From Bryum argenteum (lineage: Eukaryota > Streptophyta > Bryopsida > Bryales > Bryaceae): DNA of 64,000 nt. Of the stretch, positions 16,076 through 54,431 are shown piece after piece (the first letter of the stretch is position 1; the number at the start of each line of letters is the position of its first letter). The DNA is taken from positions 1,736,001 through 1,800,000 of the forward strand of contig CM073323.1 in assembly GCA_037043015.1 (NCBI GenBank), given 5' to 3'. The notes beneath the pieces were generated by a model that was given only the letters and a program-made list of their open reading frames with translations, searched no databases and was not told where the DNA came from. The position numbers and the translations under genes are program-made.

Positions 16076-16237
16076 ATGTCGGTGCTCCAAATAGAGAGCG
16101 TTCATTGTAGAGTCTCGATTACAGTTGATGAAGGATTGAAAGTTTTCAGTGGACCTTTGACTGTCCGGTTTATAGTCGTAAACTCTGGCCGAGCAGACAT
16201 CAACCAGCCAGCAGTGTCGCTTTGGCCGAGTGGTTAA
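16076..16237 (+). CDS. Small ORF (53 residues) running into the tRNA gene
   Basis: ATG at 16076 opens a 53-codon frame ending at TAA 16235-16237, inside the D-arm region of the tRNA-Ser gene. The protein begins MSVLQIESVHCRVSITVDEG and matches no family I recognise. It follows a plausible spliced leader (donor about 15820, acceptor about 16067). It may be the truncated start of a gene whose rest has been lost, or a chance frame. Confidence 0.2.
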   Translation: MSVLQIESVHCRVSITVDEGLKVFSGPLTVRFIVVNSGRADINQPAVSLWPSG

Positions 16238-16297
16238 GGCGTGTGCCTGCTAAGTACATGGGGTTTCCCCGCAAGAGTTCGAATCTCTTAGGCGACG
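16216..16297 (+). tRNA. tRNA-Ser(GCT)
   Basis: An 82-base cloverleaf: acceptor GTCGCTT pairs with AGGCGAC (one G-T pair), discriminator G. A-box TGGCCGAGTGG and B-box GAGTTCGAATCTC are intact. The anticodon stem TGTGC/GTACA closes the loop CTGCTAA, giving anticodon GCT (serine AGC/AGT codons). The long variable arm (TGGGGTTTCCCCGC) is the class II feature of tRNA-Ser. No CCA is encoded and no intron is present. A T-rich Pol III terminator follows at about 16330-16342. Confidence 0.93.
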
Positions 16298-33287: not shown

Positions 33288-36200
33288 TCAGACAGTGGCA
33301 CTGTTTGCAGTAATTTTCAAGGTCTCACGAATTCGTGAAGGAAGAGGAACCCACGGTCTGTTCTTGGTATCCATGCCCACACAGTCGAAGGACAACTGGT
33401 ACTGGCCGCATGGAAAAGCCGAAACATCCAGATTGCACGAGGAAAAGCCTTTGCCGTTTCTATCCATTGTAAACACGGCAATGCTTCTTCCAGCACTTCG
33501 TTTGACACTCTTGCATGAGTGTGTGTCCTCTTTCACAACTGGCAACGACACCAAGTCATGCTCAAGTTCCACAGCCTCCTCCACATCCTCACACTTGGCT
33601 CTTTGAACCAGCTTTTCAATCACGGAGAAGTCCAAGGGAATCTGGCCGTCATGCCACCCCAATTTCCACTCCGCGTACAGATCTTCCTCTACAATCGAGG
33701 TACTCTCAACACCTTGATATGATAGGACACAGAATAGCGACGATATCCTTGAAGCGCTTTCCGCCGGCAGGCTACTCAGTTGCGCGCAGATACTCAAAAC
33801 AAGAGTAGAGCCTTGCTTTATGGAGAGTTCGGTGTGCTCTTCCCCTCCAATTTGAGCTACGAACAACTCCACTGCTGCACGTGGCCTGCTTACTCAGCAC
33901 ACAATTCCAACGTACTCAAATCGCAGGTCCGTGAAGATATAGGAGATGACACATGAAGGATATTATAACCAGCAATGCACAAACTAGTTAAGTATTCATG
34001 ATTTGGAAGACAGATATTTTGTGAAGATCACGAAGAGGGTGAGGAGAGTACCTTGTACAGAAGAAGTACCGTGGAACAGGGAAAGGAATATGTAAACATT
34101 CTCCAACCAAAACTTGTAAGAACTGGAGAGCCTCCACACGAACATCCTGAAAGCTACTTCGTTGTCTCATTATAGAATTCCCTCTCTCTAACTTGCTGAT
34201 TATCTTGGAAGCCCAATCACAGACGTTGACAAGAGGGCCGATGGGGTAACACCCTTCCGAAAGATGTCCTTTCGTCTCGTCTTGGGCCCCTGCCCAGGAC
34301 TGCAAAAGCTCGATACCTTGGGAATTCCTCGCTTCTTTCAAACGAAGGTAGAGATTCTTGGCGGTAGGACGGTGCATGAGGTTGTCAGCCGAAGGAACGA
34401 CCACTCTGAAGACAGTTGCTGTGCAGAAGGCAAGTAAAGAGCAGCTCAGAGCAGCTTCAACAAGACACTGGAGGCTCTCCTGATCAAGGCCTAGAAACGA
34501 TAACCCAAGGACATCCAGCTCTTTGCTGAGGTGCATCAGCTGAGAACATATCCGGGAAGCTTTCTCTTCCGCGCTTCTGAAAGTAGATTCAGTCTGCCAG
34601 TCAGAAACAGTACCATCGCCAGCTGGAACGGGGCAGTCCATGTTCATATCAACTGCAGGTGTCGTCGTACTTGGCAGATTATAGCTTGACAACACAAGCT
34701 TTAAGAGTTCAAGAAGTTCAGCAACGGATTGTACCATGCGAAGACGAATGGATACAAACCATCGCTGAAACTCAAATGTCCTCTCAGAGCATACACCAGC
34801 AGCAAGTACATTTCCTACTTGACGAAGAAGAGGCAAGGCTCTTGATGCAGCTTTACCAAAGTCGCCTCGTTCCAGCACCTGCTTATCCGTGTCGACTTCC
34901 ATTGCCATGCTTGTGCCAGGCACCTCTGGTAATTTACAACCCTGATCCATTTCCTCATCGGAGAAACTAAGAATAGCTTCAGCATTTGCCAAGTGTGAGA
35001 CACCCAGAAGCCAAGAGTAACAGCCTTCTGAGCGCACCTTCTTTATGAGTACCTCAAAGAGAGTACACGCAGGTGTCCAGAACCCATTCGTTGCTGCCTC
35101 CGACGCTACTTTGTACGCTGTCCAAACTTCTCCAAATTTTCTCATCTTATCGACGCACTTGGTGATGTGGCCTTCAATGCTTGCTTTGTGCTTACTGCTT
35201 CTCCTTCCACTCAAACTCCAGACTCTCAATAATGGCGGAAGAGTGGCTCTTAAAATGTGACATGCAGAATCGTCTCCTGATACTTGTGTTGTCAAGTCCA
35301 GAAGCTTCGGAAGAATTGAGCAGGCTGCAGTCGTATCCATGTGATTGACGCCCGAATACAAGCAATGGCAAAGAGTCAACACGAACTCTAATTCCATCTC
35401 TAAGCGCGTGCTGGCATCCTCAGGAACCACCTCTGGTTTTGTGCTTTCCTTGCGATCTATCTCCATCAGAGCTACTGTATCTGCTTTCTCCATCAATGAT
35501 CTCAGACCTTCTACATACCTCTTTGTGACCGCTTTAATCTGGAAAGAAAGTGACTCCAAAATCAAGGGTACGACCTCAGGGCACTTCTGCATGAGCCTTG
35601 AGACAAGTCTTGTGATGACTTGAAGCCTGTCAGGATTAAATTGTTCCTTCGCCTCTCCAGTGACACTTTTCTTTGCGTTGCGTGAAATAAGAGCACCCTC
35701 CAAGGCCAATTGGTCACATAACATCAATCCAACTCTTAATGCAAAGTTCCTGTTGCTTTGGGGACCATTGCGCACGTATATGTTCATACCCTTTTCGTTG
35801 CTTATACCACCAACTGCCTCTAAACCGGCTTTGCTGATCTTAGTCGTTATGGGTTGTGGAGCATCTAAATTGCAACAAAACGATACCAAGCATTCGAGAG
35901 CTGCTTGTCTCAGTAGCCAAGGGTAAGACGAAAAATTCGACTCGACTGTCGACAGAAAGCGATAAAGCTCGGTGCTAGCCTCCACTCTGACGAAATACGC
36001 TGACAGCTGCAGAACAGTAAAATGTGCAGAGCCAGATTAGAGATTCGCAACCTACTCGACTCTGAAATGGTGTGCACATTCGCATCCATACAGTGCATAT
36101 AATGCAAGTTCAGTGAAAGTCACAAACTTGAACCTTGTGGAGGATTTCAAAAGCGAAGCCTCGAAGAACTGGAGCTGCGGTGTTATCTTGGGCAACCGAA

Positions 36201-38100
36201 AGAAGAACAGAAAAGTCCCACTTGCTCGAGACTGTGGATCGGGCAGCTCGAAAAGCTAGCTTGGATAAGCATTGCAGCGCGACAGCACGAACTGTAGCAC
36301 GAGGATCGGAGCTCACATAAGCAAATAGCAACTCCACCTGCAATTCACCTGCCCACTTTAATATCAACAGGAGGTGGCACTGCAAGTTCACCGTCAACGA
36401 TCTACTGCTCAAAACCTTCACAACTATCTTCAGAACCAAAGACAGGCAGACTTAGAACAAATAAGAGCGTACAGCACCATCTGCCCACCCTGTACGTTAC
36501 TATTACATGATCAAAACAATATAATCATCTGTGAAAGGTCGACGATCGTGCAGAAGACAAATGCGAAACACATGTGGCCATATTTGCAAGTCAAAAGCCT
36601 TAAAAAAAGATAGCATACTTGTCTTTCAATTGTGACGGTCGATTTGAGTGCCAGCGCAGTAAGAGACGTGAGCATGGCAGAAACGATGTCCGTGGTAGGC
36701 AATCGCATCACCAGAGATTCCCCTGCCTGCACAATTTCACCAGACCAATATTTGTGAGAGAAACAAGGACATCTGATCCATATCAGTGCAACCTTCAATA
36801 ACGAGATCTATAGCATAACAAGGTGCCGCAAGTTACTGAAGGGCTGTGATTGAAACGAGCACAAACCTCGTGAGCCTGGATGGAGAGATGAGAAGATGCT
36901 CCGATTGTGGAGAAGACGCGAATTACAGAGAGCTTCAGCGCCGGAGAGGACCCCATGGCGTTCATCATGTCCACCACTTTCTCGAATGCGATCTCCGCAA
37001 AATGCAACGATAACTCACACAGACAACCCGTAGCGAAGAGTGCGGCTTCCACCTGATCCACCGTCACATGAGTCACATAAGGTAGACGCCCCCAATCAAA
37101 ATTTGATGCTTTCTCACACTGTTATATCTTTAAACCGTGGAACTGCAATATGCTGTAATTCTATTTGTAGGAAAACCTCGAGTTGTGAAGTTCTTACGTG
37201 AAACACTTATTGATTCAAAAGGGAGGACTAAACAATCGAGTGGACGCTTATGCGAAGGACACCACACAATAAGAACTTCATGATTACTGGACTCAAAAGT
37301 TTATTTGAGCTCTTGCAAAGAAAAAAAAAAGGAAGGTATTACCATGTGTACATGTGTCAGATAGACATCATAAGGCATCAGAGATGTATGGTCTGATGGA
37401 AGCAGTAAAGAAAGGAGAGTAGATTGTTTCAGAGATTTCACCTCCTTAGAATGTGGCGACTCAAGAGCTTCGAAAACAAGTCGGTGCACGTCCACACTGT
37501 CGGCAGCAATTTCGCCGAGGCATCCCAACATCCGCAAAGCCAAAGCCCTAGCGACCACATCGCCACTGTCCATCACCGATTTCACCCTCTTCAAAACTTC
37601 CTGGTGATTAGCAATTCTTTCTTTCTGAAACAACCCTGTGCCAGAATTCTTTCGCATGCCTGCATTACTCTTGGACACCAGAAGAAACGCCTTAAGAATA
37701 CACAGTCGAGTGAAATTGTTTCCAGTTCGGAACGAATCCGCCAGGCGTTGCAGCATGGCAATGGCGAACGTTTTGTCCTCGCCATCTACGAGCTTGTAAA
37801 GAGCCGCTGTTTCCACAGAGGTAATGGGCTCCTCGTTCCACCATAACATCCGCGGCCCAGTTCTGAGAATCGCTTCACAGGGGGCACCTGCAATCAATCG
37901 AATTACAATCAAAACCCTAAAACCCTAAACCTTGAACCCTAGTTTCTGATTCCAGATTGCGTTGTACCTGCTTTGGTGGTCCGCAAGCCGCGTTCTAGAT
38001 CCACATTCCATTGCAAGGCTTTGGCAGCGGCGATCTCAGGCAAGCCAGTGGCGGAAATGGCAGCGCCAGGTACCCCGCTGGCACCCAATTGCTCCCCCAT
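33288..38100 (-). CDS. INTS7: Integrator complex subunit 7 homologue (EMB1895-like)
   Basis: Seven exons on the minus strand: 38100-37968, 37887-37442, 37052-36867, 36726-36619, 36337-36134, 36006-34052, 33885-33288. Phases close exactly and give 1209 residues, near the length of the plant homologue. The protein is an ARM/HEAT-type helical repeat scaffold. Family blocks visible are AKALQWNVDLERGLR, ADSFRTGNNFTRLCILKAFL, VARALALRMLGCLGEIA, SKEVEAALFATGCLCEL, DPRATVRAVALQCLSKLA and the C-terminal VELFVAQIGGEE...NRPWVPLPSRIRETLKI. Integrator is a Pol II-associated complex for snRNA 3'-end processing; the Arabidopsis homologue is required for embryogenesis (family knowledge). I chose the ATG at 38100 because the frame upstream has only a GTG. 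Most of the C-terminal half is one 1955-base exon. Confidence 0.9.
37912..37930 (+). promoter_or_regulatory. Telo-box cluster in INTS7 intron 1
   Basis: Tandem AAACCCTAAAACCCTAAAC lies within the first intron (37888-37967), followed by a further AACCCTAG. Telo-boxes near the 5' end are frequent in plant housekeeping genes and could act as intronic regulatory sites. Confidence 0.4.
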
Positions 38101-41152: not shown

Positions 41153-41449
41153 GGTAGTTGATTTCCTTCAAGGGGTGTGCGTGCACACATTCCTTGGTGG
41201 AGAAGGATAAAAAAAATTTTAAAAATTAAAAAAAATAAAAAAGTAAAAAACTTTTAAAAAATGGCTGATTTCCTGCAGGGAATGCTCCAGGGGTGTGCGA
41301 CCCCTGCGTAGGTACCCCCCTTGCAGCAGAATCTGAAACAACGATGCAAGCTGGCTGAACATGTCAGCTGGTTCAGGATCTTCATGTGCTCCTTCAAGAT
41401 CGTGGCAACATCTCCAGTCTCTTCCAGAAGCTTGTAGTATCCTCGGAGA
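41153..41449. mobile_element. Left arm of a long-inverted-repeat element (split by LINE)
   Basis: Starts with GTTGATTTCCTTCAAGGGGT followed by GTGCGTGCACAC (41156-41190), an A/T-rich spacer, and then ATGGCTGATTTCCT followed by CAGGGAATGCTCCAGGGGTG (about 41262-41300). Both blocks recur as inverse copies in the same order at 54940-55130. About 41340-41449 reads, on the minus strand, as an open frame (YYKLLEETGDVATILKEHM). If the LINE is removed, this joins the open minus-strand frame ending at 54420. Confidence 0.65.
41438..41449. repeat. Probable LINE target-site duplication (left copy)
   Basis: TATCCTCGGAGA here is repeated exactly at 54420-54431, directly after the (TATC)n tail of the LINE. 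The first four bases may be part of the tail, so the duplication is 8-12 bases. Confidence 0.6.
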
Positions 41450-41910
41450 ACAAGACCATTGAACTGGACGAGGGAGAGCGATGGAAGGCTGAAACGCTCC
41501 GCGTTTTGTGGTGAGGAGGGAGAGAGAGATGGGTGTTAGTTTTCTAACATCCTTGTGTTAGCAATGGGTACTATGTGTTTGTGTTGATTGAAGGGGAGTT
41601 GCAGGCTGGGCTGCGGTGACATTGCTTAGAAACATGCGGCTTCACAGAATACGCTCAATCTCACACTAGAGAAACAAGAAAAACATTCCAAGAGAGTTCA
41701 GATCTAGATTCAGATCTAGATCTAGAATGCAAATCTGGGATGGGTGTTGGCATCCTAGTGTTGGCAGATCTGTAGCTGTATGAGTTGGGTCATACAGAAC
41801 ACTAAGCAATGATCATTTCCGGCTCCCCTAGTCTCCACATTCGCTATAGACCCTACGCCAATCACAGCTCTCTCTCCCTTGCACCCGAAACAAGGAACTG
41901 AAGGGAAGAT

Positions 41911-44555
41911 ATGCGCGGTAGCAGAAGTCCAGCAGCTTGCAAAACTCCGGCAACAACCAGGCTACTTTCTCATACCACAAACCTTTGCTGTTACATTATA
42001 TTGTTGTGTCTATATGCTTTAGTAGCATCAAAATTCTATTGCAACTCTACATTGTGCTTTTCTAACAATATGAGCTACATACTAGATCTATCGTCTAAAC
42101 TCTGTGGTGCGGCCCGCCCTATCAAGAAGGCGCAGAAGATGGACCAGATCGCTCCCACCCCGCCCCAGCAAGCAATGCTTGCCCTGCGCAGCATGAGAAG
42201 AATGTCGGTAGAGATGTACATGATGATGCCGAAACCGCATTCCAGCATGCAAAACAAGAACCTCCAAAAGAAGTACCACAATGTCGAGCGGCGTAACCTC
42301 CAAGTGACATGCAAGACTTTGCATCCGCCCTGCAAGCACAATCAACACAAGGTGACTACCGAGACAGCATGTCAACATCCCAACATGTCATGCAATCAAC
42401 ATAAGGTGGCCACCAAGACAGCATGTCAACATCCCAACATGTCATGCAGCATGTCAGCATCCCAACATGTCATGCAATCAACACAAGATATCGGTCTGTG
42501 GAATGTGAAGCAGCTGGAATGTGAAGCAGTTATATACACTGCTGAACTGATTACTGCATACGAGGCCCAATTCGACCTTGGAAGGTGTAGCCGCATTTTC
42601 ACCTCCCCGCACGTGCTTCAAAGCAAGATCAACAGCAAAACTGCAACAACGCTACACGTGACCTCAACAGACTGCAGCAGTAGATACTCAAACCCCAAGC
42701 TAGATAGCAACATATGCAAGAAGAAGCAAGAGAGGAAATCGAACACCGCTCAAGACTGCTGCAAGAAAGATGTTGCTGAAGAACTAATCCTCCACCAACG
42801 ACTACAACCTGCACAGGCAGACTGGGATGCCAACACGTCATGTTCGAAGATTGACGAACGGTGGCGATGCAGATCCACTCCAACGTTACTATTGCAGGTA
42901 AGTATCCTAAACCCTAAACTCACGAACAGCTACGTAACAGTCCATCGCTCCTGCAATGAACGGCATTCATCGGCGGAAAAGAAGAAGAAATGCCACCATA
43001 TAAGAAGAACTGCTTGTAAGACGGTACTCACTTCTCATTGCAATCACGAACGCTGTTTGTATGCCTCAGAACTAGTAGCTTTCCTTGCTCTCCCTAGTAC
43101 CCTCTCGAAAGTACCCTGTAATCTGTGTGCAAGGATAGCAGTAGCAATAGCCCGAAACCTCAGAAGGCTTAGTATTCGTATATTAATTCTCTTAGCATAT
43201 CAGACGAGTAATTATTATAGCAAGTTACCTGTAGTGTGTTTGAGTCCTCTACTAGAAGTGCCGCTACAGAAAAGGATCACAGGAGCCTGCGAAAGTGTCA
43301 CCAATCAAGTAAGTGTGTTTCTCCAAATCTTTTGCAATTCCACCCCTGATCTAATCCAAAAGAAACCTAAGTGCAAATCGCGCTCGTTTAGTATATACCA
43401 AGTTAATTGTTGCTACTCGCATAGATTTCTCCGATACTGTGGCTACTGGTGTTGCTTGGTGGTGTCGTGCGAGTGTCAAATTTCGCAGAGCTACAAGCGC
43501 TGCAAAAGCATTGCCGAACTAAAGGAGAACGCCGTTGTGCCAAAGATCTACGTTAGCGCTGTCGTTGCGGGAGGAGAGGTTGCTGTCGGTGCGGAAGGAG
43601 AGGGTGTTGTCGCCGAAACTGGGGCGGAGGATGCTGGTGCACTGAAGCTGCTTGTCTGGAGCCGTAAGTGCGTCTGCGCGGGTGCGACATCGACGAGGAG
43701 AATACCAACGATCAAGTTTGTGTTGCTGCAGCCCCAAGTGGACCGTTCGCCGAGGTTACGTAAGCCAAACCCTAGCTTTGCCGTGACAGCGTCGCGGTGC
43801 ACCGTCTGTGAACACACGCTGCCGAGAAGGAGCAACAGATCTGCTTCAAGGAATTCACATCAGGACACACTATCAAGAAGGCGCCTTGCATCATCCCCGT
43901 CGAATCAACCCCGAACACATTCGACATCACAACTCCAAAAATCAAAACCGATTGTAGAGAAGGAAAGTGTGATCGCACAACTGTCTACAGCAGGACTGCT
44001 GCACCCACTCTCAACAAAGCTCCTACCCGGAGTAAAAAGTTGGCTGGTAGGGGGACAGACAGTAAATCAACGTAACATCTCTCCAGGTAAGACTCTCCAA
44101 CCCACGATTAAGTTTACACTTGATATGACTGTTTTAATGAACCAAAGAATTACTTCTGTTACAATGTACAATGTGCAATGTACTAATCATAAGATTACAT
44201 GTTTGTATGATACTTTGTGCATAAGTAATATGTATATTCATAATAAAGTATTATGCAATAGTAATAAAGTTAATAGTTATATCAATGTATGTGCCACAAT
44301 GAATGCCCTCATTCTTAAAAGTATGATTTCTTGGGTATGTGTCAAAAGTATAAATATTAAGAATATTAATAGGAGCAGTAAAGAAGATAGCACACGTATC
44401 CTCAAAATGCATGATAAAAAGAAAACTCTCCCCCCTATCTTCATACTTTACAAAGCCCCCCATATCATGATGGGGGGAGAAGGAGAAGAAGGGATTAATT
44501 GGAGAAAAATGGAAAAAAGCAATATTAACACTACAAAAACTTTTGTATGTAGTAG
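41911..44555 (+). CDS. Stop-free N-terminal extension of LINE ORF1, function unknown
   Basis: An ATG at 41911 opens a frame with no stop for about 880 codons before the probable ORF1 start. The translation resembles no family I know. It has a hydrophobic stretch near the start (CCYIILLCLYALVASKFYC), many Cys, Ser and Lys residues, and a 54-bp tandem repeat at 42341-42448 that preserves the frame (repeating TACQHPNMSC). GTAAG-type sequences at about 42897, 43309 and 44088 might be splice donors, so part of this could be intronic. The absence of stops over this length is very unlikely by chance, implying past selection on this frame, at least at the RNA/protein level. Confidence 0.4.
42341..42448 (+). 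repeat. In-frame 54-bp tandem repeat, 2 copies plus partial
   Basis: Units at 42341-42394 and 42395-42448 (ATCAACACAAGGTG...CAACATGTCATGCA), followed by a partial third unit to about 42490. The length is divisible by three, so the long frame is preserved. Confidence 0.8.
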
Positions 44556-46200
44556 GATGGCCCAACAAAGCACAAGCTCAACCTCCAAGGGCGTTGTTAA
44601 AAATCTAACCCAAGATCTTGTTATGTCAGAAGGATTGACGTCTAAAAGGCAAATTGATGAGAATAATCTGGTTGTCACGTCAAAGAAATCTAAGGGAAAA
44701 ATCAATGAGAGGAGATTTTGGCTAGGCTTCCAAGCTCACAATTTCTTGGATCACTATAATGATGCAATGATAGAGAAAATCAGTAAAAAAGAAGAACTCA
44801 TCAAAAAAGGTCTAGGGAAAGTGGAGAGAGAGGAGTTTGAGAAGAGCATCCCTTCTTTCCCATATGTTCTACAAGAGGAATGGCCTTCTAATAGATCTGA
44901 TGGGAAAGAGGGGCAACACTTCAACTTCACCCAAGTCCCAAGTGAGGTGGAAATAGATGAATATGGATATGCACTAGACTACCAAGTTGCCATCTATTTT
45001 GAAATTAGCACCCGTTCTACCACAAAGGAAGAGATAGGGGTACAAGTAGAGTCTAGATTAGCAAACATGGGCATTGAATTGGGCACTCTCATGGGTGAAC
45101 CAATTGCCTACCTTTGCTACCACCAATCAAATATTTGGTGTGGGACACTCAAAATCCACCTAAAAAACCCCAAAATCGATGCTAAGGACCTTCTCAAAGG
45201 TAAAAAGCCATTTATTCTCAATATAGATGGCAAACTTTTGAGAGGGAAAGTTTGCAAATCCTATGACGCTTTGGCTATTAGCAGCTTACTGTCCGTCAAA
45301 ATCAATAGCCCAAACATCTCCAACAAACATTGGGCCACCATGATGGAGGCCTTTGTTGAAGATGGCTTTAAAAGAGGGCTAGATTTTGAGATCACAAATG
45401 TCCAAAAGAATTTAGAGGCCGACTTTGCTTGGATAGTAACCACTTCACCAACTCAAGTTAAACTTTTGAAAAAAGAAAAAGTTAGATTTGAGAATGAAAT
45501 CTTGGAAGGAACAATTCCATCCAAAGTGAAGCTAACGGATGACGAAAAAGCAAAAAGAAATGTGCTTGTGTTAATTGTCAAAAACCTTAACAAAACCAAA
45601 ACAAAGGAAACAATAGAAATTGAAATTAGAAAACTCATGGGTGAAGACAATGTGGTAGACGTGTATTTTCACCTTGAAAAAGGTAAACATGTCGGAATGT
45701 GCAATGTAGAATGTCTAAACATAGCAGTCTACAAAAAATTCGTCAAAAAAACTCACAAGATATTAAACAAATATGTTGAGTTTTTTCCCCACCCCAAGAG
45801 CTTGGAAGGAACCATCAAACCTAATGAAGATGATCTAAAAAGACTTGGGTTTAACGACATTAACAACGCCCTTGCAAGCACGGTACAAGCCATGGAGAAC
45901 AAGGCAACAAAATCATACACGAAGGAGGATCTACAACAAATTGTGAATGAAGCTGTGGAGAAAGGGAGTACCAAAACCATGGAAGTTATGAGAGAGGAAA
46001 TGGGGGTGATGAAAAAGGAGATCGTTGGAGAAGCAATGAGCTATGTGGAGAAGGTACACCTAAAAGCATCACAAAGCATTCAACAACAACTCAAGGCTAT
46101 GCATGACATGTTTGCCATGACAATGCAAACCATTGAGTCCAACAAAAAATTATGCCTAGGCCAAAGGGAAGAAAGTGATTCAATGGAGACGGAAAACTAA
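44556..46200 (+). CDS. LINE ORF1 protein, RRM-like with C-terminal helix
   Basis: The likely functional start is MAQQSTSSTSKG (about 44556) within the longer frame; about 548 residues. It has a lysine-rich segment (VVTSKKSKGKINERRFWLGF), a central unknown domain, then an RRM-like fold: RNVLVLIVKNLNKTKTKE (RNP2-like), KHVGMCNVECLNIAVYKKFV and KILNKYVEFFPHPKSLEGT. After this come NDINNALASTVQAMEN and a long charged helix (about 45950-46160) that probably forms a coiled coil for oligomerisation. ORF1 proteins of LINEs bind the element RNA and package it. The frame is intact with a normal stop at 46200. Confidence 0.65.
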
Positions 46201-46436
46201 ATTGGCACACCAAAGGCCCAACGACACATAGCTCAAAACCAAGTGTATTTTTTAATACAACCAATAAAAGTAGAAACTATATAACCCCAATTATACCAAA
46301 AATAAACATTACCAAAGCCAAGCCAAAAACACAAAAAACCCAACTTACCCGGCCACAGAAGTTAGCCAAAATAAACACAAAAAATCCGAAATATCCCATC
46401 ACAAGACAATATCTGCACCACAAAAAATTCTCCAAG

Positions 46437-47522
46437 ATGTCCAAAACTAAACAAACAAACCATACACACAACTCTACAAAAAATCGAGCTCGGTCTCCCG
46501 GCCTCGCCTATAAACTAAATTTACTAAACCCATACAAACTACACGTACATAACATCACATCCACACTATCATATATAAAGAAACTTTTTGGGCCTCAAAA
46601 ACTAAATAAACCTTACAAAAAGTCAAAAAACCCCATGAAAGACCCACAAACATGCCACTCAAAAAAACTAAAACCATTAAAACCCACTCAATACACCGGA
46701 CACACAAACAAACAAATCCGAACTCCGGAGCTCACCTATGAACTAATAATCCAAAAAATACACACACAAAACATCACACTCATAAAAATTTCAAAAACAT
46801 CAACCCACAATACTAAAACATACCACTACACATACAAAGACAAATATCACTTACCAAAATGCGGAGATTTCGAAACCAACCCAGGGCCCATGCCGAATGT
46901 ACTCAAAACACACCCATCCGTCCATAAACGAAGATGCAAAATCTACTTCATACCATGCACAATTAGACTACACCCGGAATATCAACACTTATCAGCACAA
47001 TTTGCACCATGTCTCATAAATATTCACCCAAAACATCCAGAAGCACAAATAAAATATCCATATCTCACAAATTACGTCCGGGAAAACTCTCAGCATCCAG
47101 CACCACGCATATTATATGCTCTTATCACAACAATAAACCCATCACCAGAAACATGCACCCGCATGCTCGAACATCCCAATGACCCAAATTGGACCACTAT
47201 ATTACTTAACAAAATGGCCACACTTCAAAACCCACCGGAAAGACATCTTAATAACACACACCCATACACACAATTCAAAAACGCTAATTCTAACCTAATA
47301 AACCCCCCCAACACCATACACGAACAATTATATGAATTCATTCAACAAAACAACACACAACCCAATCAAGAACAATTAAAAAAAGAATTCCCATTTTTAC
47401 CCGATAACCTACTTGCAGAAGCCCTAAAAATCAATGAACCCCTTCCCGAATATTCTCATCCACCTCCAAAGACCGGATATGCCCCCCACAAAAAACAACA
47501 CAATCACACTCACGAACCATAA
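46437..47522 (+). CDS. LINE second ORF with 2A ribosome-skipping motif
   Basis: 361 codons. A basic N-terminus (MSKTKQTNHTHNSTKNRARS) leads to HLPKCGDFETNPGP; the 2A signature D-x-E-x-N-P-G-P is at residues 144-151 (46866-46889), and the next codon is ATG. The 2A motif makes ribosomes skip the Gly-Pro bond, releasing an N-terminal peptide of about 150 residues from the downstream protein. The following about 210 residues (KRRCKIYFIPCTIRLHPEYQ..., NPPNTIHEQLYEFIQQN) have no recognised domain. The last 89 bases overlap the start of the endonuclease frame by +1, with a C6/A6 run (about 47481-47493) in the overlap. The normal product may therefore be a fusion by frameshift, or the shift may be a mutation. 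Confidence 0.7.
   Translation: MSKTKQTNHTHNSTKNRARSPGLAYKLNLLNPYKLHVHNITSTLSYIKKLFGPQKLNKPYKKSKNPMKDPQTCHSKKLKPLKPTQYTGHTNKQIRTPELTYELIIQKIHTQNITLIKISKTSTHNTKTYHYTYKDKYHLPKCGDFETNPGPMPNVLKTHPSVHKRRCKIYFIPCTIRLHPEYQHLSAQFAPCLINIHPKHPEAQIKYPYLTNYVRENSQHPAPRILYALITTINPSPETCTRMLEHPNDPNWTTILLNKMATLQNPPERHLNNTHPYTQFKNANSNLINPPNTIHEQLYEFIQQNNTQPNQEQLKKEFPFLPDNLLAEALKINEPLPEYSHPPPKTGYAPHKKQHNHTHEP
46863..46889 (+). other. 2A-like peptide motif GDFETNPGP
   Basis: Codes GDFETNPGP, preceded by HLPKC. All invariant residues of the 2A signature (D, E, N, P, G, P) are present. The position near the N-terminus of the pol precursor is the same as in trypanosome L1Tc, where 2A activity is documented. Confidence 0.8.
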
Positions 47523-49608
47523 AACGCATATAGTCACTTGGAATGCCTCATCACTCAACACCGCCCTCCCAAATTTACATGAACTAATCACTAACACCCC
47601 AACAAGCCCGGCAATCATTGCAATACAAGAAACTAAACTAACTGCCACAAAATCTACCAAATATCTTCAAAATTTATTCCCTAATCACAAAATGATCTTC
47701 AACAATACACACACACTAACACGATGCATGCAACAACGAATGGAATATACACCTACAAGAGGAGGTCTCTTGTTATTTATAAACAACAAATACACATACC
47801 CAGGTAATGTTAACAAAATCCCAACCCCCGCCGCAATATCACCATATTTACAAATTATAAAAATAAAAAACGAACCTCTACAACCTTGGTTACTTATACA
47901 CATGTATATGCCGTCACATCCAGAAGACACCCCTTACATAGAAACAATACAACAACAAATAACACAACAGATTACAGCACACCCTAACCACATTCAAATA
48001 TTATGTGGGGATTTTAATAGAGACATAGCTCTCATAGGTCGTCGACACGAATTAAACACAACTCCACCGCAATTAGAAGACAGAGATTGGTGAGCATTCA
48101 CAGATTCCCTACAACTAACATATATACCAACAAACACTGTATATTCAAGACAAGGAGGACAAAATTATAGCAAAACTAGCCTAATAGATGGATTTTTCAT
48201 AAATACCCCCAATAACAATTCATACACATCGCTAACTATTACAGAACATAACCTCAACTCAGATCATTCTCCAATTACTCTTCAAATACCTCCAAACACA
48301 CTGCTTGCAAGACCCCCACAAGAACCAACATCTAAACCGATAAGAATTTTAAATCCTATTCCACAAGAAAACCTTGATAAATTTAAAACAATATTCTATG
48401 AAGACAACTCAAACGAAATCAATAACCTCACCTCTCTTCTCTCAAACACTCAACTAACAACTACACAATGGCAAACGGCATGCGAAAAACTAGACCACTT
48501 AATTCAAAAAACATCCAAGTTAATTGAAAACACTTGCAGCGCACCACCTTTGCCTACACTAACACCACGCACATCTGAACAAGGAGGATTTCTACCAAGA
48601 AAACTCCAAAAACAATGGAAAAAACACCTAACCACATACCATCTAATTCGCAAGGCTATATACAGTACAAAAAACACCCCCAATTGGCAGCAACACCCCA
48701 TAATAGAAGAACTAAGCAAACATACACACACAAACATTCCACCACCTCCACCACAAACCAACAATCCACAAGAATGGATCCAAACCCTAGCAGAAATAGC
48801 AAAATCATCAAAAAAACAAGCACAAAAAATCACTACGAAATTCACCCAAGCATGCATTAAAAAAGCCATCACGAAATATAGGCAGTTATACGACAAAAAT
48901 CCAAAAAAAAAAAACAAAAAAGTCTTCAAATATCAAGATACCCCACCACTTGACTGCATCATAGAAGATACCCCACCACTTGACTGCATCATAGATAGAT
49001 ATAACAACCTCTTAACCAACCCGAAAGACATCGCAATTGAAATACACACACAACAATCTCAAACTAATAGGCCCACAGTCCCAACATGTTATCACCAACC
49101 CCAACACCCAACACTATGCACATGTAGCGTGAGACAATACCCATGGCACGATTTAGACGGCTTTGTAATAGAGAAAAGAGGTAACCCACAAACCCCCTTA
49201 CTTGAATACTTCAACGATGAAATATATAGCCAATGTTTAAAACAATTATCCAATAATAAAGCACCGGGACCGGACAGAATCCCTAACTCCATTCTAAAAA
49301 ACATGCCCGACAACTTTCATAAACTACTATCCATGTTTTTTCACCACTGCTACAAACAAAGTCAAATACCAACATCATGGAAACTAAGCCTAACCATACT
49401 ACTATACAAAAAGGGCGATCCAGCGGTACTACCAAACCACAGGCCTATAGCGCTAGCCAATACAATCTACAAACTCTTCACGAGTACTCTCACACTTATA
49501 CTTTCAACATATGGCGAACATCACCAAATACTACATGACAGCCAAGAAGGCTTCCGAGCAGAAAGAAGCACAACCAGACAAATACAACTCATCACTGCGA
49601 CCTTTTAG
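47434..49608 (+). pseudogene. LINE ORF2 part 1: AP endonuclease and RT N-terminus
   Basis: One frame from 47434 (or the ATG at 47478) to 49608, interrupted only by TGA at 48091-48093, where W or similar is expected (DW*AFTDSL). The endonuclease domain shows THIVTWNASSL, AIIAIQETKL, ILCGDFNRD and, past the stop, LNSDHSPITLQ, so the N, E, D/N and D-H catalytic set is complete. A linker contains a 24-bp tandem duplication (repeat of DTPPLDCIIED, about 48939-48986). The RT begins with KQLSNNKAPGPDRIPNSIL, WKLSLTILLYKKGD, NHRPIALANTIYKLF and QEGFRAERSTTRQI (RT motifs 0-2). After 49608 the frame is lost in the RT palm. Confidence 0.8.
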
Positions 49609-50100
49609 AGGACGAAAACTCACAAATCAAGACATCTATATACTATATATAGATTTTAAAAACGCATTCGGTTCCTTCCCCACGCCGACTACTACTCGCA
49701 GAATGAAAGACCTTGGTTACCCTTTAGACGCATTACGCTAATTGGTAACATATACGCAAACTCTTCCACAATATTCACAGGCGATTATTTTGGCAAGACA
49801 GAACCAATTCCAATACAAAGAGGAACCATTCAAGGCGACACATTAAGCCCCTACCTATTTCTCATATTTCTAGAACCACTACTAAGATGGCTACAAAGAG
49901 GGAATAATGGCTATACATTTGGTACATCGAAAATAAACATTACAAATTCTTTGCCGATACGCAAACGATTTAGCTGACTTGCAAACACCCTCCAATCCAT
50001 ACAAACTCAAATATACAAAATAGATAAATTTCTCGAATGGGGCCGGTATGGACCTCAAATACAGAAAAATGTGCTATTACAGGCTGTCCGAATAAATCCA
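49511..50100 (+). pseudogene. LINE RT palm region, frame-broken, YADD changed to YAND
   Basis: The catalytic palm is readable only by switching frames: motif A YIDFKNAFGS (about 49646-49675), motif B RGTIQGDTLSPYLF (about 49819-49860) in another frame, and motif C YANDLAD (49958-49978) in the motif A frame. In motif C the first catalytic Asp is replaced by Asn (AAC, consistent with a G-to-A change). The thumb continues from about 50040 in a third frame. At least three indels fall within about 450 bases. Confidence 0.85.
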
Positions 50101-53100
50101 AAATAAAGCCCGATAAATTCAAGGAAAAAATAGAGCAACACCACATCACCTATAGAAACCAACCAATTCCTATCCTTCACCAAAACGAACCTTATATCTA
50201 CCTTGGTATCCACATGGTACCCTCTCTAAAATGGAAAATCCAAACACACATCGCCACAAACAAACTCATCGACCAATGTAAACAACTCGCAAAATGCCCC
50301 GCAACAATCAAACAAAAAATCAACATGGTTGATACAGTCATCAGAGCAGGGATCGCATATAGCTTCTACGCAGTCCCATTCTCACTTCCAACCATCAAAA
50401 AACTTGACAAAAAAATTATAGGACTCCAAAAAACAATTTGTGGCCTTCCAAAATGCACAGCGAACGTGATAACCCAACTTCCTCACAAACTCTTTGGTCT
50501 TCAAGCATTCTCACTAAAAAACGCATATCTAAGATGTATCGGCGAACAACTTAGAAATGCACTTAATGATCAAGGAAGACTAGGCAATATTTACAAAGGC
50601 CTTATTCAACACATAACGTCCAAACACGGTGGCGCCAAAAACATCCCCAGATTAAAAGCCTCCGACTGTATAAACTCTCCCATATCAAGAACACTATTTC
50701 TTCTCAAACAAGATGGAGGTATACATCTAAAAAGTACCAATAATGACTTCCAATTACACAAAACCGTACTGGAACGACAGTGGTTAGAACAAGTCACAAC
50801 CGAACTTCCTCACCTCAACCCGGAACTATCAATCAAGCTCTTACACAAGCTTCTAATACACAATATCTACAAAATAAAGCACATCTCTCTCCCAAACGGT
50901 ACGTACCTCATGTCACCAACTGACTTTGCAACCTACCATAAAACACCAACTAAACTTGAGAAAAGTGCGCTAGAAATAGCTGAAAAACTATTTTGCCAAA
51001 CTAAATGCAACCCAAATTGCCCTAACACCTGCACCCAACACCCACCGGCCCGCAAACTCAAACCAATATACATCTCAGACAATTTTGACTTACTCCCAAG
51101 ACATTTAAATACCCGACCACAACCTACTACCCACCAAGATACTCACCAAATAAGCCCACCACCTAACATTAAAAACAACCCTCTTGAACACCCCATAACT
51201 ACAATATTAAATCACAAAACAGTAACTGCAAAAGACAAATACAAAATACCTAATACCCACAATACATACCTATGCAAATGGCACCACAATAACACGACAT
51301 ACCAGAAATGGCTCCAACAGAGAGACCTATTTCCCCTAAATTATCCAACAGTCATTTCACACAATATTCAACTACTTACGGATTACTACACTAAATCGCA
51401 ACATGATCACTATCGAAACTTGATCAACGCTCACTTCATACAAGCACAACTCAAGGACACCAGGTTCATACCACCACCATCAATTACCCCACTTACGCAA
51501 ATACACTTTGCAGAATGTAATCCAGAAAGAGACATTATTACTAACAAAACCACCATACAAATAAATAACGAATCAGCTCACCTATACGAAGACAATGGCC
51601 GATACCTCACCACTATACCCATAAACAGATTACAGTGGCTATGGCAACAATTTAACAAATACTCAAACAACTCACACGGGCTAATGCCATACACACAAAC
51701 ATTTGAAACAGAAATAATATGGCTATACCAAAGATATAAAGCTCAATCTTCCAAAAAAAACCCGAAACTAACACCCCACCACACCCTTCCAACAAACATT
51801 CTCGATCATATCACCACTAACCTCCAAATCAATCACTCATATTTTTCATCACCAATTACATGCTCCACCAAAATAACAAAATATTTCTCCCCTTTCTCCC
51901 GAGACAAAATCTTTGGATCTCGTGGCAACGCTTTTGAATATAAATGGACGGGCATAGGGTATGCGCACACCCATAATCCGGAAACAACCCAACAAGCCAT
52001 CCACTGGGCGAGATTAGCGGCCAAACACGACGCAAATACAATCACCATAATAGTCACCCCCGACCCAAACTGGTACCAAAACCCAACCCCGTATATTGGA
52101 CCTTTCCCCGATACACATATAATAACCCATTTCACCGCAGACTCCATCACATACGAAATCCCAGCACCCCCACAAAAATACAAACCAACAACCGAACCAC
52201 TTGCAATATCCATCATGTGCATACACCATCAAAACAATCACGTTGGTACATTAGAGCAAATTAACAACATTAAAAATGCAATTGAGGCCATGGCAATCCC
52301 ACACTACTATATACAACAAGCTCCACCAACCCCATACAACACTATCGTCAATAAAAATAAAAGATGGAATAAAATGTTATACCCCTCATATACAAACTCA
52401 AACTCCGAACCCACATGTATACCCCCTCTACCAACGTTTGAAATCAACCTTACTCTAAAATTCCAACCGCAATACAGCTACTATACGGACGGCTCCTTCA
52501 TACCACCTAAAGAAGCCGACGACGGACATTGGAAAAAAGAAAAAGCTGGATACGGCATCTACAATCCCACAAAACCTGACATGCAAATATCAGAAAGACT
52601 TCCTGGCCTTCAAACATGCTTTCGTGCCGAATTAATGGCTATATATACAACCCTACACTTAATCAACACCAAATACCCAAATGAACCGGCCTATATCTTC
52701 ATGGATTGCATAAACTGCCTATATAATCTAAAAACTCACATATTACACCCATCCACACAACACAACCATCCTGACAAAACCATCCTAACAGAAATGGTTG
52801 AGATATTACAAAACCGTACTCAACCTACTATATTCCACAAAGTTAAAGCGCATATTAACATCACTGGCAACGAGGAAGCAGACAAACTTGCGAAAGCCGG
52901 CGCCACCAAACGATATACGGTAGCCACAAAACCCCATGAATTTGCACACACCACACCATTCTATTACCAGAAATATGAATGGCCAGGACCCCTAACTCGC
53001 CCAGACAAAGGCCCCGTCAGATGCCTTCAAACATACATACACAAACAAGACTACGACAACAACCTTATAATACTCGCTGACCAATTCCCCAACATCAACA

Positions 53101-53936
53101 AATGGACAACAAACCCGGATATTGACAATGAATTATCAAATGCATACTGGCTAAACCCCATAATTACGGACTCCCAAAAAACAACTATTTTAAAGCTACG
53201 CACCGGCCAATATATGGGGAACGCAAGGAAACAACTATTCTTTGGTAGAGAACGATTCCCATCAATAACTTGCTCTATATGTAACTCCATGGATGCCGAC
53301 ACATGGTTACACGCATTACTCAAATGTGGTCACCACCACATACACGCCCTTAGAATCAAGAGACATAACAAAGCCGTATGGGAACTAAGAAAATTAATTC
53401 TCTCATCTCAAAAATCACGTTGTTATATCCTCATGAACGCAGGCACATTTAATAACAACTCCCAAGAAAATACGGTCCCTACATGGCTATTACAATGCAA
53501 ATGTACACAACAAAAATGTCATTGCAACGCTAGATTCAAACCGGATATACTATGCGTTAAAGGTCTACCACACAAAAACGACCCACCACCACACCCGATA
53601 GACAACCTCACACTTCAATTTATAGAATTCACATACTGTAACGATAGATTCTCTCAAGAAACAATTAATAACAAAACCGACAAATATCAACCACTTCTTG
53701 ATAAACTCCGTAACCTAGGATGGAAAGTAGACCCCCTCATAGTCATCACAGCGGGTGCTAGAGGCACAACACACAAACCATCAATGAAACTTCTTGCAGA
53801 AAAATTTAACTTATCAGAAACATGCATAAAACGCACATTCCATGAAATAAATACCATCGCCATTCAACACGCCGGATCAATTATTTTACACAAAAGGAAA
53901 ATTGAGAATAACCAAACAATCCCCACAATAATGTAA
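50037..53936 (+). pseudogene. LINE ORF2 part 2: RT thumb, long linker, RNase H, zinc motif
   Basis: An open frame of 1299 codons. The first part is the RT thumb (EPYIYLGIHMVPSLKWKIQT). A long linker of about 700 residues has a CNPNCPNTCTQH cysteine cluster (about 51008-51043). RNase H follows: YYTDGSF (D, 52488), CFRAELMAIYTTL (E), YIFMDCINCLYNL (D) and VKAHINITGNEEADKLAK (H and D), so the active-site set is complete. A C-terminal zinc-binding segment reads CSICNSMDADTWLHALLKC then GHHHIHALRIKRH (about 53269-53360). About 190 further residues follow, ending in a normal stop. RNase H after RT is an I/Ingi/R1-type feature. The frame is remarkably intact given the broken palm upstream. Confidence 0.8.
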
Positions 53937-54112
53937 CAATAAAAGGAGGAGGGCGTGAGAAATGGCGCAAACCACTTCCCACAAGAATAGTCACACTTGT
54001 CTCAGGTAGATGGGACAAGGCCGATTGATTGGTACAAATTTCCCCTATGTGTATAACACACTAGCAAAGACCAAGCCATGTATATCACATTAAACGCTCA
54101 AACGGATCCACC

Positions 54113-54167
54113 GAGTATCGAACCCGGACCGCTTATTTGTGACTCAAACATCCCTACCAATCAACTA
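54113..54167 (-). other. Antisense tRNA-like A/B boxes in LINE 3' UTR
   Basis: On the minus strand, TAGTTGATTGGTA (A-box-like, 54155-54167) and GGTTCGATACTC (B-box, 54113-54124) are spaced as in a tRNA. A T-arm CCGGG/CTCGG folds, and a weak acceptor (5 of 7 pairs) can be drawn. It is not a functional tRNA gene. It may be a SINE relic or a tRNA-like structure of the element's 3' end. Confidence 0.45.
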
Positions 54168-54399
54168 GGAATCATGGCTCGGCGACCATACCCACAATAA
54201 AGTACAAAATATAACTTTACACAAACCTTAGAAAGATAATATTGACTATTTCTTGGTTACTACATTTCTTTTGGCTACTATAGTGTCTAATCCCGAAAGG
54301 GGTGAGTAGTCTAGTACCGAGTCCTCTTGTCCGGTGGGCATTAGGACACCGGCTTGACGAATGTACACTCTAATCACGCCCCCCAAAAAAGGACCGGAG

Positions 54400-54423
54400 T
54401 TTTTATCTATCTATCTATCTATC
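54400..54423. repeat. (TATC)n tail of the LINE
   Basis: TTTTTATCTATCTATCTATC directly precedes the right copy of the putative target duplication. Short tandem tails are usual at the 3' end of non-L1 LINEs. Confidence 0.7.
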
Positions 54424-54431
54424 CTCGGAGA

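Follow-up and report, generated by a model that had tools for sequence, protein, structure and literature searches.

A conserved 2A (StopGo)-type motif ahead of the ORF2 enzymes in a Dualen/RandI-like LINE family of the moss Bryum argenteum

The window analyzed here is a stretch of 64,000 nucleotides from the moss Bryum argenteum (assembly GCA_037043015.1, contig CM073323.1, positions 1,736,001 to 1,800,000 of the forward strand), and coordinates given below without another label are those of the window. The genome encodes LEAFY, and one of its DNA-binding exons agrees at 102 of 106 residues with chain 4bhk, the structure of a LEAFY homolog from the moss Physcomitrium (242.9 bits, versus 172.4 for the next LEAFY structure), as expected of a moss host. 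The + strand carries a LINE, whose parts and flanking repeats are as follows.

41438-41449, + strand: candidate 5' target-site duplication TATCCTCGGAGA, 12 bp, 30 nt ahead of the shared 5' end
41480-54418, + strand: the whole LINE (~12.9 kb), taken as the extent of its alignment to copy L027x; it ends in (TATC)n
44557-46200, + strand: ORF1, from the ATG of MAQQ; its third-position bias is seen in L012-type copies
46179-46862, + strand: leader of ORF2, whose open 2A frame starts ~21 nt ahead of where the ORF1 frame ends (-1 relative to ORF1)
46488-46508, + strand: one copy of a hairpin-like, GC-rich leader repeat, GCTCGGTCTCCCGGCCTCGCC
46803-46862, + strand: the 20 codons 5' of the core, THNTKTYHYTYKDKYHLPKC, likely the ribosome-tunnel context of the 2A of the window subfamily
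46863-46889, + strand: 2A (StopGo) core GDFETNPGP, conserved in the family, with a predicted skip between G and P
46890-47468, + strand: conserved region directly after the 2A, predicted to be helical, beginning MPNVLKTHP
47521-48348, + strand: AP-type endonuclease (Exo_endo_phos)
49417-50210, + strand: reverse transcriptase (RT), with the frame broken inside
51678-52064, + strand: PCIF1-like domain without an NPPF motif
52479-52901, + strand: RNase H
53256-53783, + strand: CCHC knuckle and restriction-like endonuclease (KPD...E)
54420-54431, + strand: candidate 3' target-site duplication TATCCTCGGAGA; the TATC tail may account for its first bases

Exons of INTS7 (Integrator subunit 7) lie near the LINE at 33988-37924 on the - strand, and a tRNA gene (Rfam RF00005) is present at 16216-16297 on the + strand.

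The original prediction gave the element a length of about 13 kb. This size is upheld by its alignment to copy L027x from 41480 to 54418, in two blocks of 97.5 and 98.1% identity, and by the 12-bp repeat that flanks it. Three copies can be aligned with each other over ~11.7 kb at 95.6-97.2%. Flanking repeats of 12-13 bp are found at L012x, L019x, L027x, and the window, and one of 9 bp at L022x; the repeats of these five full-length copies fit target-site duplications. At L012x, L019x, L027x, and the window, the 5' flanking repeat is separated from the shared 5' end by ~20-37 additional bases that the copies do not have in common.

In the window copy, GDFETNPGP is encoded by GGAGATTTCGAAACCAACCCAGGGCCC (46863-46889, + strand) and an ATG follows directly. 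The motif lies within an open frame (46179-47522), 228 codons past the frame opening and 142 codons past an ATG at 46437, a position that is Ile in the sister copies L002 and L027. Thus, the claim that a 2A motif is present in the ORF2 frame right before an ATG is borne out by the reading of this segment. The accompanying claim that every invariant residue is present does not hold: the V/I position is F in the window copy, as against V (17) or I (26) in the 43 others among 44 motif rows; some loci among these rows overlap, so that some sites are counted twice. ORF2 of the window is also split into several frames. With its F at p13 and its broken frames, the window copy is a decayed example of the family, a dead relic. 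Because F at p13 is missing among the active variants named in sections of a StopGo survey (PMC12846837), low skipping is predicted for this copy, which is probably a poor 2A.

The motif is widespread in the genome. A degenerate codon pattern for GD[VIM]ExNPGP has 161 matches (84 + 77) in the 259-Mb genome (25 contigs) and 0 in a reversed control, which rules out a chance origin. When the 133-aa region around the motif was used in a protein search, 150 copies were scored among 296 candidates. The canonical core is present in 22 of the 25 distinct loci fetched first, which are the best matches or have long open frames (L009-L028 were chosen partly for the latter, favouring intact copies); the exceptions are the window (F at V/I) and L003 and L020 (K for E). 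A less biased sample consists of 20 places taken at even steps from the remaining 125 scored copies. Here 13 are canonical, 1 has GDIQ, and 6 have other, mostly different changes, a pattern that looks like a conserved motif decaying in dead copies. The other family copies were thus checked for absence or out-of-frame placement of the motif, and it was found to be conserved in them.

This conservation is seen at the level of the protein. Each core residue is spelled by at least two synonymous codons across loci, and in ten window-type copies the core sites that vary in at least two copies fall 0/0/4 on codon positions 1/2/3 (2/1/5 when all variable sites of the 27-nt core are counted). With shared variation confined to third positions and synonymous codons in use, the core is under amino-acid-level selection. 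Third positions also dominate in the 603 nt 3' of the core in the window-type alignment, with variable sites at 31/21/70; at 630-1500 the phase bias is weak (130/124/171), as expected because the frames are broken.

Immediately upstream of the core, the context is a property of the subfamily. Window-type copies have 22 variable sites of 90 at -90..0, versus 257 of 480 at -570..-90, and their context, YKDKYHLPKC, is outside the classes named in the section on contexts of PMC12846837. Other subfamilies differ from the window type (for example, IPNxLFLLLC). Among them, contexts with LLLLC or LLLQC resemble the L-rich, p12=D class of known StopGo sequences; according to the same section, natural upstream contexts include L-rich, LLLLSG-like ones with G before D (PMC12846837).

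The leader, the part of the ORF2 frame between ORF1 and the 2A, has a length of 228 codons in the window, ~620 in the L012 type, 821 in L023x, and 1,389 in L017x. Over the 970 nt upstream of the motif, 19 of the 30 motif rows, representing 18 of 27 distinct sites, have 0 stops in the 2A frame and 6-45 in each off-frame; the remaining 11 rows, which have 2-19 upstream stops in the 2A frame, are decayed copies. In three near-identical copies the 2A frame is stop-free over ~1,240 nt and each off-frame has at least 21 stops. An A/C-rich composition was rejected as the source of this openness, since the off-frames are full of stops. Substitutions within the leader have no third-position excess (25/33/28 by codon position in the three-copy set and 95/84/78 in the window-type copies); the codon-phase counts are 45/23/14 for ORF1, where the silent position is shifted by the frame difference, and 15/12/34 for ORF2 at 700-2500. 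In a comparison of 39 dissimilar motif-bearing sequences, agreement per position in the leader is 0.09-0.16 as far as 21 residues short of the motif, rises to 0.18-0.24 from there to 6 residues short of it, and reaches 0.52 over the final five (block means), and conservation extends ~45 residues past the motif; these sequences were picked by the motif, so that identity of the core is by construction and the comparison is informative in the flanks alone.

The original prediction placed a basic N-terminal peptide upstream of the 2A. There is no sign of a defined, conserved one, as the leader is without amino-acid constraint and hardly alike between subfamilies. Given its stop-free 2A frame and its lack of third-position bias, the leader looks translated yet free to drift, with the 2A being the first thing after ORF1 that matters.

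Leaders can also contain a GC-rich, hairpin-like repeat, GCTCGGCCTCCCGGCCTCGCC. In a scan that allowed up to 5 mismatches in 23 bases, 1-5 copies of it per leader were found in 17 of 24 copies, on the element strand only, and none in the other 7; at no more than 1 mismatch, it is present at 129 places in the genome and 0 in the control. In database relatives, the leader peptides GSASRPRHK and RARPTGLA look as if encoded by this repeat, either in the same frame or in a different one, which suggests that it is conserved as RNA or DNA.

ORF1, which matches no Pfam family above its cut-off, travels with the 2A. A search with ORF1 scored 79 matches among 330 candidates; 63 of the 79 are followed within 8 kb by a 2A of the same strand and 0 have one on the opposite strand, and 16 have no 2A place among the 169 such places compared. 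The junction could be read in four subfamilies, and in each of them the shift from ORF1 to the ORF2 frame is -1. The two frames overlap by 21 nt in the window, 22 in L023x, 223 in the L012 type, and 217 in L017x; those of L025x do not overlap. In-frame fusion of ORF1 with the 2A, seen in L019x and L022x, was rejected as the native state: because intact-looking layouts keep ORF1 and the 2A one frame apart, the fusions are read as separate indels in the ORF1 tail. In L017x, the ORF1 stop occurs within an AUGA, such that an AUG in the ORF2 frame overlaps it ~3954 nt before the 2A of this copy, and more than 1,300 stop-free codons lie between this junction and the 2A. An AUGA overlap is the layout of coupled termination-reinitiation, which parts of PMC5972666 also describe for the LINE SART1. 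The window, L023x, and L012-type junctions contain no AUG at the ORF1 stop and, inside the overlap, no canonical -1 slippery heptamer in phase with ORF1.

Portions of the protein downstream of the 2A define the class of the element. The ORF of L010 (2584 aa) has Pfam matches to RT (5.3e-27), a PCIF1-like domain (7.8e-13), and RNase H (PF00075, 1e-11); its endonuclease matches are weak, below the cut-offs, and no protease domain is present among its Pfam matches. Of 11 aligned A1 members, 10 match Exo_endo_phos (E up to 0.01), and the N-terminal endonuclease is an APE fold according to its model (mean pLDDT 56), whose best fold matches are ExoIII/APE1 (up to 6.6e-11). At the C-terminus, the CCHC and KPD...E residues are invariant in 7 of 7 aligned copies except for one K-to-R change. 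A poor model of this domain (mean pLDDT 49) has as its five best fold matches R2 proteins only (E 1.2e-4 to 3.1e-3, TM 0.30-0.34 of the query), the next being viral cap-snatching nucleases (1.4e-2); a sequence search of the PDB returned no significant relative of this domain (best E 1.1).

In an RT tree that has no RTE row and no Dualen reference sequence among its rows, the family joins two sequences, P0057 and P0059 (100/98), and then P0066 (R2) and P0065 (96/95). A Papaver sequence, P0090, falls with P0081, P0083, and P0089 in a clade separate from the moss family; from their PF13966 domain, we take these rows to be plant L1. The original prediction had assigned the element to L1 or RTE. 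Membership in plant L1 was rejected, since the RT lies outside the rows read as plant L1 and since both RNase H and a restriction-like endonuclease (RLE) are present. Membership in RTE was likewise rejected given the RNase H and the R2-type RLE; RTE elements are not known to have an RLE or an RNase H. By domain content, with APE, RT, RNase H, and an R2-like endonuclease in one element, the family is instead like Dualen/RandI, a LINE group with two endonucleases. The combination of APE and RLE in one element marks Dualen in part of PMC4640811. Portions of two other papers list Dualen/RandI from green algae alone (PMC3747384, PMC4438587), and passages of another place relatives in Chlamydomonas (PMC8226300).

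Relatives of the family are present in protein databases. The RT part, used as a query, returned 96 proteins without informative names (62 with identities of 46-74%); a profile spanning the 2A-to-endonuclease region matched 138 proteins (120 listed); and an N-terminal profile aligned 84 stretches among 194 proteins, 59 of which span the whole core. These 59 cores comprise 38 that are canonical, G[DGCN][VI]ExNPGP, 8 that are intact except for E (5 with H and 3 with Q in its place), and 13 with other changes. Thus, the expectation of a 2A-type signature near the ORF2 N-terminus of a land-plant LINE stands: the signature is in frame and is kept both in family copies and in database relatives. According to sections of PMC12846837, H at p14 (the E position) occurs naturally in active StopGo sequences and E14Q retains partial activity; the recurrent replacements of E in the relatives are therefore variants known for StopGo.

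We consider it likely, from these patterns of sequence conservation, that intact copies have a functional-type 2A at the N-terminal boundary of ORF2p, and that skipping there would free ORF2p from the leader. For this to occur, ribosomes would translate ORF1, and some would go on into the ORF2 frame, -1 relative to ORF1. Entry could be by termination-reinitiation at the overlapping AUGA in one subfamily (L017x) and by frameshifting or reinitiation elsewhere. The ribosomes would then cross a leader that needs to stay stop-free and whose amino acids would be irrelevant. At GD(V/I)ExNPGP, the nascent chain would be released between the last G and P, and translation would restart at the Pro. Consequently, ORF2p (helical region, APE, RT, PCIF1-like domain, RNase H, and RLE) would gain a uniform N-terminus, freed of the leader, and the 2A would decouple it from the 5' module of the element.

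A different, unlikely reading is that GDxExNPGP is the start of a folded ORF2p domain, that no skip occurs, and that the leader remains as an uncleaved N-terminal tail. The ~45 conserved residues past the motif and the predicted helical region that comes next agree with such a domain, and because constraint continues downstream of the 2A, part of the conservation of the motif could indeed belong to its start. However, the residues required for StopGo are fixed while x varies, and divergent relatives keep NPGP even where the MPNxL that follows is replaced by LSHI, KLNL, or RNTL. The recurrent substitutions of E, H and Q, are again those known for StopGo in the relevant sections of PMC12846837. 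In addition, the leader is without constraint, and the motif can occur in tandem in single frames, with two motif-like sites in four relatives.

It is very unlikely that ORF2 starts at the ATG after NPGP, leaving the motif untranslated as an RNA-level element or a product of chance. An ATG does follow NPGP in 43 of the 44 motif rows of this genome, many gene calls in relatives start exactly there, and no in-frame upstream ATG is found at a constant place across subfamilies. Yet 10 of the 38 canonical cores in relatives have K, R, L, or I in place of Met behind NPGP; for this reason, a start codon at this position fails as a general explanation and was rejected as a general rule. The shared variable sites of the core, all of them third positions, and a 2A frame that is selectively stop-free upstream also argue against it. 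Finally, that the motif is an ancestral relic, which skipped once and is used by no present element, is extremely improbable: the window and 6 of the 20 sampled copies (7 with GDIQ) are off the canonical core, but shared core variation is at third positions only, long frames are open across the 2A, flanking repeats of 12-13 bp remain at the window and 3 of 4 further full-length copies (the last has 9 bp), and NPGP persists in relatives at 36-53% identity to L010.

Some copies contain more than one motif. Among 100 pattern sites listed of the 161, at least 10 pairs are <5 kb apart, 9 of them in frame, and similar spacings suggest that some of the pairs descend from one event. L011 and L018 each have two 2A motifs inside one open frame. 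In these copies (L011 1435-2971 and L018 1470-2316, element strand), two different fronts, truncated at different points, are joined in frame, by a short stretch of simple repeat, to leader-2A modules that closely resemble each other. Two motif-like sites each are also present in the relatives P0106, P0108, P0149, and P0189. Since a 2A would make ORF2p indifferent to its 5' fusion partner, ORF2p could ignore whatever is fused ahead of it, and such chimeras could work.

Decoupling of ORF2p by skipping at the 2A fits both the dissimilarity between leaders and the presence of copies with tandem 2As, fused in frame on the 5' side. A broader role of the 2A, as a translational insulator, is offered tentatively, as a conjecture that we hold somewhat less probable than not. 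The translated leader would be selected only to stay open, because it matters as RNA and not as peptide; the leader peptide would be discarded, and 5' modules could be swapped or fused freely, including in multiplied chimeras with two in-frame 2As. A role of the leader as RNA is suggested by the GC-rich hairpin repeats that many leaders carry.

A 2A was reportedly described by Heras in 2006 in the trypanosome elements L1Tc/Ingi, where it is said to follow the short N-terminus of a single-ORF element. The moss family is like these in having a 2A in frame ahead of the endonuclease of a non-LTR element; it differs in having ORF1 and a long unconstrained leader before the 2A, in its land-plant host, and in its dual endonuclease. 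Odon and colleagues are said to have found 2As in 2013 in animal APE-type LINEs of the CR1/L2/RTE/Rex kind. These have in common with the moss family an L-rich context and GDxExNPGP near the N-terminus of the EN-RT ORF, and are unlike it in RT clade, host kingdom, and domain set. One database protein, P0094 (LLLVSGDIQINPGP), looks like the 2A of such an animal-type APE LINE. Dualen/RandI LINEs, which were reportedly described by Kojima and Fujiwara in 2005, share with the moss family the presence of APE and RLE in one element, RNase H, and an RT on the R2 side. The moss family is set apart from them by its host, its 2A, its PCIF1-like domain, and the lack of a protease among the Pfam matches of L010.

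Similarities extend to other StopGo and LINE systems. The core octapeptide and the p14=H variant are shared with the StopGo sequences of picornaviruses and other RNA viruses, which sit in virus polyproteins and whose L-rich upstream class the LLLLC and LLLQC subfamilies resemble (sections of PMC12846837). With SART1, the family shares an AUGA in which the ORF1 stop and the ORF2 start overlap, seen here in subfamily L017x (part of PMC5972666); unlike in SART1, the AUGA is missing at the other junctions read, and what follows is a long leader that the 2A would remove. According to portions of two papers, 2As are known in trypanosome and animal LINEs, RNA viruses, and some sea-urchin genes (PMC4981915, PMC5972666). 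In a 2026 survey, nothing pointed to plant viruses using StopGo naturally, even though 2A is functional in plants (PMC12846837). Among the titles and abstract openings of the literature covered, none reports a 2A from a land-plant LINE or from Dualen; outside that scope are Odon 2013 and Rao 2025, the latter, judging by its title, a survey of 2As in eukaryotes and viruses. Thus, 2As in LINEs are already known, and it is the land-plant, dual-endonuclease setting that appears to be new.

If true, these assignments would mean that StopGo occurs naturally in the land-plant lineage and on the R2/Dualen side of LINEs, not just in APE-type clades. They would also provide a concrete reason for a LINE to have a 2A, the freeing of ORF2p from an obligatory, unconstrained leader. 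The natural variants (V/I/F, E/H/Q, and several upstream contexts) represent a ready test set for plant StopGo peptides.

A PCIF1-like domain lies between RT and RNase H (residues ~1830-1959 of L010) and matches the structure of human PCIF1 at 9.1e-5. PCIF1 is a cap m6Am methyltransferase in which NPPF is catalytic. Since NPPF is replaced by AHPH in L010, the domain of this copy looks inactive.
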